Below are positions 3,792 through 7,828 of a stretch of DNA of 64,000 nucleotides, piece after piece. The position numbers and the translations under genes were made by a program. A model generated the notes under the pieces. The model searched no databases, was not told the origin of the DNA, and saw nothing but the letters and a program-made list of their open reading frames with translations. This stretch comes from Haloferax mucosum ATCC BAA-1512 (GTDB taxonomy: Archaea > Halobacteriota > Halobacteria > Halobacteriales > Haloferacaceae): positions 558,001 to 622,000 of the forward strand of contig NZ_AOLN01000018.1 of assembly GCF_000337815.1 (NCBI RefSeq), read 5' to 3'. The stretch's first letter is position 1. Each line of letters opens with the position of its first letter.

Positions 3792-5495
3792 GAGTGTGGC
3801 CACTCACGATAAGCGACCTGAGTCGGCGTTAAGCGTTAATCTGGCGGAATCAGTGCTGAACAGACCAACTCGACACACTCGCCAGCCGTCAGAATCGGGG
3901 CGTAGTCCATCTTCCCACCGACACCCGCCTTCAACAGGAAATCAGTGAGCCGCCAGATGTTGTGCAGCAACACTGCGAACACGAAATAGAACAGCCGTAC
4001 GCGGTAATCCTTGGACGAGGTCTTCGCCAAAAAGTCGTTCTTGATGCTCTTGTATTCGTTCTCGATCTGCCAGCGGCGGCTGTAGTGGCGGCAGAACGTT
4101 TCAGCTTCCTTGGGGTCGACTGAGAGGTTCGTCGCAAAGACCGCTGTTCCCTCTCCTTTTGTTGAGGGAACGACAGAAACTGCATCGCGTGCGAGCCCTG
4201 CTCGACGTGGACAGATGCCGATTCAACAGCTACCTCCTGCCCATTTTCATCCATCGTCTCGATAGCCTCTCGCTCATCACCGTGGATGCGTTTGGGGATT
4301 AGATAGTTCACACCGAGGTTCGAGAGCGTTTGATACACCGCTTTCGAGTCAAACTCTCGGTCACACAGCACCATCTCAATCGGGACGTGCTCCTGTGCGC
4401 GTCGAACGAGTCGTCGGACTACGCGATGAATCCGATTCGGCGGATTCTGGTCCCACGAGGAACTCTCACGAACGGGTTCGATGGCGAGAATCAACGGAAT
4501 ATTCCAGCCGACAATTGAGAGTGTGGCGAATTTAAACGCTCTTCCATCGCCGTCCTTCGTCCCGCTGACCATCGGCATTCCTTCCACGTCACCAAAGTAG
4601 CGAACAGTCGTGATGTCAATCGCTACGGTAACTGGACGGCGAAACGAGGACTCCGATTGAATCACCGAGAGGAGTCGTTCTGTCGCCTGCTGAAATCCTT
4701 CAAGTAATCTCTCCGGGTCAAATTGTTTGACTGCGCGGAGGTGCGTGTCTCCGTGGGGACCGTATTCTTTTCCTCGACGGAATTTGAACCGAGCCGCGCC
4801 TTGCGGAGTGCCGCAACCGACCATTCCAATGAACGTCTGAAGCTCGAAGAATCGCGTATCTTCGTACGTCGCGTTGTGAGCTCTCTCAGAGTCGAACGGA
4901 CCGAAGCCGTGCTCACGAGCGAGACGGGTTGTACGGCAGATTTCTTCGTTAGAAAATTCGGTAGTGTTCTCAGCCGGGTCAGTAGCCTCTTCTGATGATT
5001 GCTTGACTTCCTCTAGTGGCCGGACTTCGGGAACTGAGAGGTTCTCGTTGTGGATCTCCTTGACTAAGCAGTGTGCACTGGCAGTGACATACCCACGAAC
5101 ATCGTCGTCGAAGCGATTGCGCCACGTTCGAGAGATGACTGACTCATTGGGGACTCGGTCGAGACCGAATACGTCGGCAAGTTCTGGATGGTGCGTGAGA
5201 GATCGGTAGCTGTCTCCAGTGACTTCCAAATAGATGAAGAGCTTGAGCATTCCGTGGAATGAGTACGGGGCGGGATGCCACTCTGGGTAGTCGTCTTCGA
5301 GCGTTTCGATCTGGAGCTTAAGATTGGTAAGCGCATCGCAGAACGCTGTCCCCTCACGGAGGTGTTTGCGGAGTTCGAGAGCAGCGACAAATGCGTCGGT
5401 TAGTCGGCGGCCACGCTGTTCCATCAGATAGTCTTGTCAGCGGATACTCAACAACGTTGATGACTTTTTCTCCTTGGTAGTGACTCGCCACATTC
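3792..5495 (-). mobile_element. IS4-type insertion sequence with imperfect terminal inverted repeats
   Basis: A single transposase gene fills this 1.7 kb element. The left end reads GAGTGTGGCCACTCACGA at 3792. The right end, read inward on the minus strand from 5495, is GAATGTGGCGAGTCACTA. They match at 14 of 18 positions, as expected of terminal inverted repeats. No clear target-site duplication is seen in the flanks (…TCTCGTA on the left, AAAATTGG on the right), so the exact ends are uncertain by a few bases. A separate 9-bp inverted match, CTTATCGTG at 3689 against CACGATAAG at 3804, lies just outside and inside the left end. Confidence 0.75.
3836..5424 (-). pseudogene. IS4-family DDE transposase with one frameshift
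   Basis: The frame from the ATG at 5424 encodes a DDE transposase. Catalytic Asp residues are visible at about 270 (VAIDITTVRYFGD) and 355 (MVLCDREFDSK). At about 4194-4200 the frame is lost. Reading on in the other frame from GLARDAVSVVPSTKGEG restores the family sequence to the stop at 3836. That part includes YSRRWQIENEYKSIK, a perfect IS4 Y-x2-R-x3-E-x6-K signature holding the catalytic Glu. A single-base deletion near the GGG/CTCG run explains this. The repaired protein would be 529 residues. A programmed frameshift is possible, but the element has no second copy here to compare. Confidence 0.85.
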
Positions 5496-5518: not shown

Positions 5519-6096
5519 CTATCGAGACACTGGAGCGTCAGGGACCGTCTGTAGATATTGGTCAGGATTTTCGTGGAAGCAATCTCCAACGACTACGGCA
5601 TCGGCACCAGCGTCAAGAATTTCCTCGGTCTGTTGCTGGCTCTTGATACCTCCACCGTAGAGAAGAATTGTGTCATCAAGATATTTTGCCGCTGCTTTCA
5701 CGTCTTCGGGGCCACCATACGTTCCGGAGTACTCGATGTAGAATATCGGAAATCCATAGAAGGATTCAGTTGCTAGTGCGGCACCTGCGACCTGATCAGG
5801 TGTGTATAGTGTCTCAACACCAGACTCATCGGCTGCTTTTGAGTCGAGATTTTGAACGACGTACCCCTCACCCAATATCTTATCTGAGATTTTGGCAATA
5901 GCATCGCGACCTCTAGACGCAATCAAGTCGCCTACAAGTGGAAGCCCAGCACCGAATACTTCTTGAGGCTTACTCCCGACCTCTGTGAAGAAATCCACGT
6001 GTTTTGCAACGAAGTTGTCGCGGTCTCCGTTGTAGACTGCTGGTACGGAAAGAACGTCTACAGCATCTATCGTCTCAGTAGAAACATGACTTGAGT
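5519..6096 (-). pseudogene. geranylgeranylglyceryl phosphate synthase-like gene, C-terminal part
   Basis: This fragment encodes the C-terminal 190 or so residues of a PcrB/GGGP-synthase TIM barrel, the enzyme that attaches geranylgeranyl diphosphate to glycerol-1-phosphate in archaeal lipid synthesis. Recognisable parts are VPAVYNGDRDN, YIEYSGTYGG and the phosphate-binding YGGGIKSQQQ and GADAVVVGD. A GTG at 5998 could start a short frame, but homologous sequence continues in frame without a start up to 6096. There it meets the inserted unit at 6097. The missing N-terminus is found intact at 7619-7828 on the same strand. It is probably a second paralogue of the housekeeping enzyme. The local DNA is AT-richer than the core genes. 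Confidence 0.85.
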
Positions 6097-6235
6097 GGCA
6101 CTGTCTAGTTAAGCCAGTTTGAGGAACGAGCAGGTCGTTGAGTTAGTTTGGGATGAAGCTTTCGGCATAGGCATCAACGGCTTCCCGCTCCATCTCCCAA
6201 GTTCTAGCGGTCGAAACCGAAACTGTCTAGTGATT
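6097..6235. repeat. left IS-derived end of the halocin unit
   Basis: The segment starts with the terminal repeat GGCACTGTCTAGTTAAG. A second half-copy, AACTGTCTAGTGATTC, lies at 6221-6236 in the same orientation. The minus strand between them reads TWEMEREAVDAYAESFIPN then a stop, which could be the extreme C-terminus of a lost transposase. No catalytic region remains. I read it as the decayed remnant of an insertion sequence whose outer end still defines the unit. Confidence 0.55.
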
Positions 6236-6253
6236 CACCAGAGCCGAACATAC

Positions 6254-7227
6254 TTAGATATCGACTTCACAGTTCTTGACGATGTAAGAACAATTTCCAG
6301 AGACAGCTACTAACGCGGCTTCCGGAGCACAAATCGCTAGCAATGCAACTGCACACCCAGGTGCAACTGGTCCCGTGATAGAACATGTAAGGAGCCCTGG
6401 TGTACATCCCAAGAAACCCCCCATTATATCGGCAACACAAAACCCAGCCCTTTTCTCACATTTGGTGGCTAAAATCGAGAAGCCACCATTATTGCCAATT
6501 GTACCTTCTTCCGTGATCGCTGTTCGAGAACCGTTAATGCGGGAATAGCGGCGATCATGAACGACTATATATCTTCGTTCTGGACTTCCCGTTGACTCGT
6601 CTGGAAGTGAGTGGTCGACGTCAATACTCAGTTTACTACTCTTGGCTTTCATCAATTCTCGGATGTCTTGCTTTTCGGAGTCTGTAGGCTTCCGAGAGAA
6701 TTTAACGCCAGATGTTTTCTGGGAAGTCGTGAGGTGCCCATTTGTGCCAGTCGGCCATTGACCAGCAGTTTCGATTTTAGCAATGGTAGATCGATGGAGA
6801 GCGTCTCGATTAAGTCTAATAACGGCCCTGATTATCTCATTTTTATAACGAATGATCTTGAGTTCGCCTACGCCACTTGGGACGGTAATATATTCTCCAA
6901 ATTTAGTCCCATCAATAAGCTGAATGAATTTCTTCGCGTTATCTTTTTTGACGGTTGTGTTTTTCAGATATCCAAGAATGTTGGATGGGAGTTCACTAGT
7001 CAAAACAACCTCCAGTTCCTGAGTCGTGAGCTCTACCCTTTTAGTTTGTAGTTGTGACTGCGTCTCAGGTTGGCCCTTTGCAGCCGCAGTACCACTAAGA
7101 CCAATCGCACTCGAAAGTGCGGCTGTGGTAGTATGTTTTAATATGTCTCTCCGATTGAACTTCGATGAGTTGGTACTCTGCGATTCTAGATCTAACCAGA
7201 CGTGTCATCGGTGCGAACTTTATCCAC
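6254..7227 (-). pseudogene. halocin C8-like antimicrobial precursor, frameshifted in the signal region
   Basis: The frame encodes a Tat signal (FNRRDILKHTTTAALSSAIG), a hydrophilic pro-region of about 190 residues, and a C-terminal hydrophobic domain of about 70 residues with eight Cys (CEKRAGFC, FLGC, LLTC, PGC, LAIC, GNC, KNC). This layout matches halocin C8 precursors: Tat-exported, with the N-terminal part acting as immunity protein and the C-terminus released as a Cys-rich bacteriocin. No start codon lies in the Tat frame; the first is a TTG at 7003, after the signal. A GTG at 7227 reads DKVRTDDTSG and joins LDLESQS if one T is restored near 7194. A single deletion therefore inactivated it, or a slipping T run switches it. 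Restored length is about 324 residues. Confidence 0.7.
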
Positions 7228-7330
7228 ACATCACATAACTAATGTCTATTTGATAACTGTTTTGGATCCATTTAATCTCTGTACCAAATCGGAACTTATT
7301 AATGATTTCGCATTTAATTACTGTCATCAA

Positions 7331-7549
7331 ATGACACTCAATGAATACCTGAAAGAACGGCCGTTATTAGGTGGTATCCCTGTTGTGTTCATGATTGGGG
7401 TAGGTATGTTGGTTTGGATGAAAATCCTCCAACCTGGGAAACCGTTACTAAATATATTATTCGGGTTGGATTTTTTACTAATATTCTCAATATTTGGCAC
7501 TCTCAGTTACTGTGGATACGTGGCGGCATCTGGGGCACTGTCTAGTTAG
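7331..7549 (+). CDS. small two-segment membrane protein, divergent from the halocin-like gene
   Basis: A 72-residue protein starting MTLNEYLKERP, with two hydrophobic helices (about 12-28 and 38-62) and a short loop KILQPGKP. It is transcribed away from the halocin-like gene across an AT-rich shared promoter region. Its last residues, GALSS, and its TAG stop come from the terminal repeat of the adjoining 85-bp element, so the original C-terminus may have been longer. Small membrane proteins next to bacteriocin genes often give immunity or help export. That role is suggested only by position. No family could be recognised. Confidence 0.55.
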   Translation: MTLNEYLKERPLLGGIPVVFMIGVGMLVWMKILQPGKPLLNILFGLDFLLIFSIFGTLSYCGYVAASGALSS

Positions 7550-7618
7550 TGACCTCCTCAACCGGCGTTTGTTCAAGCGCTTGATGCGGTCGGTGAAAGT
7601 TACTAACTAGACAGTGTC
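7534..7618. repeat. 85-bp MITE-like element with inverted ends
   Basis: The element opens with GGCACTGTCTAGTTAGT (7534-7550) and closes with the inverted copy at 7602-7618, giving 16 of 17 matching positions. The 51 bp between them encode nothing recognisable. It looks like an internally deleted insertion sequence. Its outer end forms the right boundary of the halocin-carrying unit. Confidence 0.7.
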
Positions 7619-7828
7619 ACTTGAGCTATATGGCTCTTGAAACAGACACAAGTCCGGAAATTGAGCTCGGATTTGTGTGATCACATCAAGAGAATTCTCT
7701 TGTGTTACACCATCGGATCCACCGATGATGACTAAATCCGTGTGTGCAAGGATGTCCAATTTTTCGGGTAAATCCTCCGCTGGATCAACCTTCGTGATAT
7801 GAGTGATTTCGTTCCAATCGATAGACAT
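7619..7828 (-). pseudogene. geranylgeranylglyceryl phosphate synthase-like gene, N-terminal part
   Basis: The ATG at 7828 begins MSIDWNEITHITKVDP, with the ITKVDP motif of the GGGP-synthase family at residues 10-15. It continues through IIGGSDGVTQEN to LFQEPYSSS at residue 70. There the reading frame enters the terminal repeat of the inserted unit and stops three codons later at 7607. The rest of the gene lies at 5519-6096. Together the two parts give about 259 residues, close to the family's usual 230-255. The native reaction makes the first ether bond of archaeal membrane lipids. As split here, the gene cannot encode a working enzyme. Confidence 0.85.

Follow-up and report, generated by a model that had tools for sequence, protein, structure and literature searches.

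An IS6-bounded, transposase-less unit with a candidate halocin-like gene pair in a split PcrB-like gene of Haloferax mucosum

We suggest that the 64,000-nucleotide stretch of Haloferax mucosum ATCC BAA-1512 analyzed here (hereafter the window; contig NZ_AOLN01000018.1, forward-strand positions 558,001 to 622,000) contains a transposase-less composite IS6 unit that was inserted in trans, as one block, with an antimicrobial precursor and its immunity partner as cargo, a reading to which we assign a probability of roughly 0.6. Remnants of two inverted IS6-family copies would flank the two-gene cargo, and an IS6 transposase supplied in trans would have placed the block in a spare PcrB-like gene, generating an 8-bp target duplication. 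The precursor would undergo Tat export with a folded pro-domain, proteolysis would release a disulfide-rich C-terminal peptide acting as a halocin-like antimicrobial, and a small two-TM membrane protein would give self-protection; we infer killing activity, processing and immunity alike. The original prediction of a mobile bacteriocin cassette is largely retained as far as it concerns a unit with IS ends, no transposase and halocin-like cargo, inserted as one block; the halocin C8 label, the weight given to the target gene and present-day mobility are not borne out.

Halocins are common, and few have known genes; to our knowledge, their movement between haloarchaea is poorly documented. The unit shows a halocin-like gene pair at a definite insertion whose target site can be read, and is probably an instance of how antimicrobial genes are carried about in archaea, though this copy looks partly decayed. 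We find most interesting the uncatalogued precursor family itself, with its two-TM neighbors and its repeated contacts with IS6 elements, since the precursor and its candidate immunity partner are open to cloning and testing. Coordinates are collected in Table 1.

Table 1. Features of the unit and of the gene that it interrupts (positions are those of the window).
Feature	Position	Strand	Length	Basis
3' part of split PcrB-like gene	5519-6096	-		ORF; joined protein matches PF01884 and NF003199
Left copy, 8-bp target duplication	6089-6096	.	8 bp	ACTTGAGT; homologs continuous here
IS-bounded unit	6097-7618		1,522 bp	15-mer termini at both ends
Left arm, transposase-proximal (5') end of archaeal IS6-family element	6097-6148	+		51/52 identical, L099:3320-3371
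IS5-family terminal remnant	6160-6245	-	86 bp	90% identity to L098:2001-2086
Tat-type precursor, 8-Cys C-terminal module, uncatalogued family	6254-7195	-		ORF; relatives by profile searches
Two-TM membrane protein, candidate immunity partner	7331-7549	+	72 aa	ORF; homolog in G329
Right arm, miniature IS6 remnant	7534-7618	-	85 bp	69 bp of transposase 3' end plus 15-20 bp outward terminus
Right copy, 8-bp target duplication	7619-7626	.	8 bp	ACTTGAGC
5' part of split PcrB-like gene	7619-7828	-		ORF from MSIDWNEITHITKV... to insertion; in frame with 5519-6096 after excision

The outer ends of the unit carry the terminal repeats of a complete IS6-family element, over 51 of 52 positions on the left and as a 15-mer with one mismatch on the right. 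The 15-mer GGCACTGTCTAGTTA lies at 6097 (+), with an inner copy at 7534 (+), and the outer right terminus, GACACTGTCTAGTTA at 7618 (-), differs from it at a single position; allowing one mismatch or fewer, the window holds three matches, as against 0.00 expected from 100 dinucleotide shuffles. The left arm was matched to an entire element of 858 bp (L099) from H. mediterranei pHME132, whose transposase is annotated as IS6. In the right arm, the 3'-end terminus at 7534 faces inward and the outward terminus ends at 7618; the inner 69 bp are 85% identical to the 3' end of the L099 element, residues 193-212 of the IS6 transposase match 7601-7545 (tblastn), and the arm contains the inverted repeat I2. 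Its outward terminus could stem from either end, 5' or 3', of an IS6 copy, and by orientation the two IS6 remnants are inverted to each other. The IS5 remnant between the left arm and the precursor is 90% identical to a stretch at the upstream end of a gene annotated as an IS5 transposase, and its tip lies 8 bp after the precursor stop codon.

IS6-family elements produce 8-bp repeats (PMC7986276), and the archaeal membership of the family is disputed (PMC6807381). Directly outside the outermost termini, ACTTGAGT and ACTTGAGC are identical at 7 of 8 positions; the chance of at least 7/8 identity at two fixed places is 25/65,536, or ~4e-4. The inverted IS ends and flanking 8-bp repeats that had been predicted are both borne out, the repeats (which the prediction gave in both forms) at 7/8 rather than full identity. 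The flanks of the miniature element at 7534-7618 do not repeat, and we therefore reject it as a separate insertion and take the whole 1,522 bp as the inserting unit. No transposase ORF lies within 6097-7618, only terminal fragments, just as the prediction of a unit without transposase had it.

Excision of 6097-7618 together with one repeat yields an open, PcrB-like frame of 259 codons, and six uninterrupted homologs (those of G063, G021, G025, G027 and G170, and a 78% paralog in the same genome) align across the junction with no gap. Since the frame joins on excision and the homologs are continuous over the site, the two halves once formed one continuous gene that a single event then interrupted; the exact restoration of the frame claimed at the outset thus holds. 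The restored protein matches PF01884 (1.3e-35, 123.3 bits, cut-off 23.9) and NF003199 (267.8 bits, cut-off 169) but reaches only 101.9 bits against TIGR04147, below the cut-off of 300, and is hence not the canonical haloarchaeal GGGP synthase, which lies intact at C18:668613-669302 (TIGR04147, 429 bits). The interrupted gene is a spare, dispensable paralog: the predicted GGGP-synthase-like target is confirmed as PcrB/GGGPS-like, not as the canonical enzyme. The 78% paralog, a second non-canonical PcrB-like gene, is found at C18:747724-748485 (L058), and this genome thus had three PcrB-family genes. An uninterrupted version of the gene, sought at this locus on the strength of the original prediction, exists in the six homologs, whereas at the same locus the relative G032 (90-94% DNA identity up to window position 6070) lacks the cassette, and a different rearrangement, close to an IS6-type end, has disrupted its PcrB-like gene. 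Because its gene is broken too, G032 is not a clean empty allele.

The larger cargo gene belongs to a precursor family that profile searches place at nine loci including the window, the others being in H. elongans (G025), Halolamina salifodinae (G053), G233, G257, G329, G435, G447 and G484; no Pfam or NCBIfam match was found for the members tested. Its Tat-type signal, NRRDILKHTTTAALSSAIGLSG, has the motif NRRDILK followed by a hydrophobic stretch; the RR pair is conserved in full-length relatives, and TIGR01409 scores below its cut-off. The C-terminal module has the spacing C-x6-C-x10-C-x6-C-x9-C-x7-C-x12-C-x6-C. AlphaFold predicts a folded, mixed alpha/beta middle domain at residues ~48-232 (pLDDT mostly 70-91) and, at low confidence, a helical C-terminal module; a fold search with this model returned no significant match among solved folds. 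Searches also brought up 276-aa proteins with ~29% identity over residues 3-142, which look like IS transposases, have no Cys module and were rejected as relatives.

Ahead of the Tat motif there is no in-frame ATG, GTG or TTG, the first such codon being the TTG at 7003, while an ATG at 7206-7208 (-) is out of frame by one base. The missing start may reflect an error in the sequence, a non-standard start codon or a genuine lesion. It makes export in this strain doubtful, and the precursor copy here is possibly silent. We give nearly even odds to the reading that the unit is a dead relic, brought in once and with no function today, the precursor having lost its start and the IS6 copies having decayed too far. 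This would fit the absent start codon, the two-TM gene, whose last codons fall inside the IS6 terminus, and the state of the IS6 copies in the genome, all of them fragments or stop-ridden; the precursor copies of H. elongans and G329 are truncated as well. Against it stand the near-perfect terminal repeats and a remaining frame that is open over 313 codons, whose last 140 codons differ from those of H. elongans by 10 synonymous and 5 nonsynonymous changes, a dN/dS of 0.15 that points to purifying selection on this part; a one-base sequencing error would also account for the start. This reading is compatible with one-block insertion in trans, agreeing with it on the past and differing only on today.

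Mobility must be considered in the same light. IS6 transposase matches occur in 12 of the 15 genomes of the genus, several with intact frames, whereas the seven matches in this assembly, a 20-contig draft from which an IS6 copy may be missing, include no intact one. The original prediction had the unit mobilized in trans by IS ends; for present-day mobilization the assembly provides no source, and in this strain the unit probably no longer moves. We infer that its past movement was driven by an IS6 transposase in trans. The cassette copy looks decayed: its precursor lacks an in-frame start codon ahead of the Tat motif, and none of the IS6 transposases encoded in the assembly is intact.

Other precursor loci adjoin IS6 ends as well. 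In H. elongans, the C-terminal half of the same precursor is found at another place (96% of codon-aligned positions identical), where the 3' end of an IS6 element, placed to the same side of the precursor as in the window, cuts off the rest of the gene; the same IS5 tip follows at an equal distance past the stop codon, and this locus may well be a deletion derivative of the same cassette. In G329, which belongs to another family, an IS6 transposase fragment and end, a two-TM homolog and a precursor fragment lie within ~930 bp. The further ~119 kb of sequence surrounding these loci contained no such ends. The prediction called for the same cargo at other sites, and part of it does recur beside IS6 ends in these two genomes, but the complete unit, enclosed by its two IS6 ends, was seen once and in no second genome. 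An IS6-like 15-mer near the G484 precursor was not counted, as it runs into an apparent other IS type and there is no IS6 transposase there; hit H1 on pHME505 was rejected as a second cassette, since it consists of an IS6 end and an ORF starting with IS5-derived sequence and holds no precursor. The precursor was absent from public plasmids.

Three further places in this genome combine IS6 sequences with genes for secreted proteins. Two decayed IS6 copies, inverted like the remnants of the unit, surround the gene of a 174-aa lipoprotein (L017:2333-3724, C10:60332-61723). At L018:2262-5174 (C4:119261-122173), an IS6-type left end is followed by the gene of a Tat-signal protein and then by an IS6 copy that has a broken frame and points the same way as that end. 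No 8-bp repeats were found outside either composite, and they are therefore parallels at most. The third (L019:3690 and 4345-5133, on C6) lies close to a contig end, where a Tat-signal protein, hydrophobic and Gly/Ala-rich in its C-terminal part, is encoded in the neighborhood of an IS6-type end.

Mobile insertion cassettes (MICs) carry passenger genes between IS ends, without a transposase. They are thought to move in trans (PMC3129680), and the unit resembles these and transporter IS (tIS) elements in its IS ends around passenger genes, and the MICs in its lack of a transposase; it differs in that its ends are of archaeal IS6 type and each arm is a decayed IS copy, which brings it nearer to a decayed inverted composite. 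With the (pseudo-)compound transposons of the IS6/IS26 group it shares IS6-family ends, 8-bp repeats and cargo between two IS copies (PMC7986276), but here the copies are inverted, reduced to 52 and 85 bp, and without transposase. The IS6 review describes one passenger-carrying member and two MITEs, the sole listed tIS being the bacterial ISDsp3 with a hypothetical passenger (PMC7986276); the present unit is an archaeal example in which IS6-type ends enclose passenger genes.

The cargo is most likely a halocin-like antimicrobial precursor with an immunity partner. The likeness to halocin C8 (ProC8/HalC8) lies in the putative Tat signal, the folded middle domain and the small, Ala/Gly-rich C-terminal module with its eight cysteines; in ProC8, a precursor exported by the Tat route, a large N-terminal part precedes a short C-terminal peptide rich in Cys (PMC11509114). 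We would distinguish this likeness in layout from membership in the C8 family. TIGR04449 (halocin_C8_dom) has no match in the H. mucosum genome at E 10, while the same model finds the halocin C8 family over its cut-off in six other genomes; profile-profile comparison with hhalign gives a probability of 0.4%; and the eight cysteines are spaced differently from the ten in halocin C8 relatives. Halocin C8 identity is hence rejected at the sequence level: of the predicted Tat-exported, Cys-rich, halocin C8-like precursor, a likely Tat-type signal and the proHalC8 layout stand, while the family assignment falls and export is in doubt. In ProC8 the HalI part gives immunity, whereas here a separate two-TM gene could do so. 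In the HFX_0892/HapP system of H. mediterranei, proteolysis of a secreted haloarchaeal precursor likewise frees the antimicrobial part (PMC12893001); the comparison is by description, and the active part there is N-terminal and based on alpha-helical motifs, unlike the C-terminal module considered here.

The small membrane protein predicted as the second cargo gene is indeed present. Small two-TM ORFs (69-81 aa) adjoin five of the eight precursors examined (window, G257, G233, G329 and G053), against 5 of 142 control spots, with the window ORF counted by hand as the automated test passed over it (longest frame 115 codons); the membrane protein may therefore be an immunity partner. The window protein is 38% identical to that of G329 (5e-6), and those of G257 and G233 are weakly alike (28%, 6e-4); no homology is detectable among the remaining two-TM neighbors, and gene order differs too. 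Six further Haloferax genomes have a stand-alone gene for a protein 41-51% identical to the window one, and such homologs could be orphan immunity genes in non-producers. They lie (L138:5016-5240, L140:4925-5149, L132-L137) near an aminoglycoside 3-N-acetyltransferase-like gene. It is conceivable, though less likely than not, that all of this amounts to a new, uncatalogued haloarchaeal antimicrobial class whose immunity function resides in a separate two-TM gene, dispersed in minimal producer-immunity cassettes that have IS6 ends and no transposase, with orphan immunity genes kept by non-producers.

It is quite possible, though less likely than not, that the cargo is instead a secreted, Cys-rich cell-surface or signaling protein with an unrelated two-TM neighbor. 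TIGR04449, hhalign and the fold search detect no similarity to any characterized halocin, the relatives are rare and in varied contexts, and other secreted proteins adjoin IS6 ends in this same genome. Such a function would nevertheless leave aside the agreement of the putative Tat signal, folded middle domain and 8-Cys module with the ProC8 layout (PMC11509114), the patchy distribution of the family and the recurrence of two-TM neighbors, as well as a neighboring membrane-protein gene that the Halolamina locus has in common with the HalC8 locus L089 (31%, 6e-30), possibly a shared halocin-locus gene. Its two copies (L089:709-1440, G026; L146:4520-5428, Halolamina) carry EYTGxNRCxxC ... ARGYLVPGTPxLTKxYLP and adjoin, respectively, a HalC8-type precursor and a precursor of the new family.

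Finally, it is very improbable that fragments of IS6 and IS5 and a miniature IS6 element simply gathered by chance around a resident gene pair without any movement as a block. In favor of such a pile-up, the surroundings are AT-rich and littered with IS sequences, including an ISH3-like transposase alongside, IS-in-IS pile-ups are common in haloarchaea (PMC3119063) and the left arm is itself an IS6/IS5 fusion. Against it, the 8-bp repeats directly adjoin the outermost termini on either side, no repeat of its own flanks the miniature element, and the junction of the rejoined gene halves is just that of the six homologs, whose continuity over the site largely refutes a pile-up. The adjoining ISH3-like transposase gene (window 3931-5424) has a frame break near its 3' end and is conserved at the same locus in G032.
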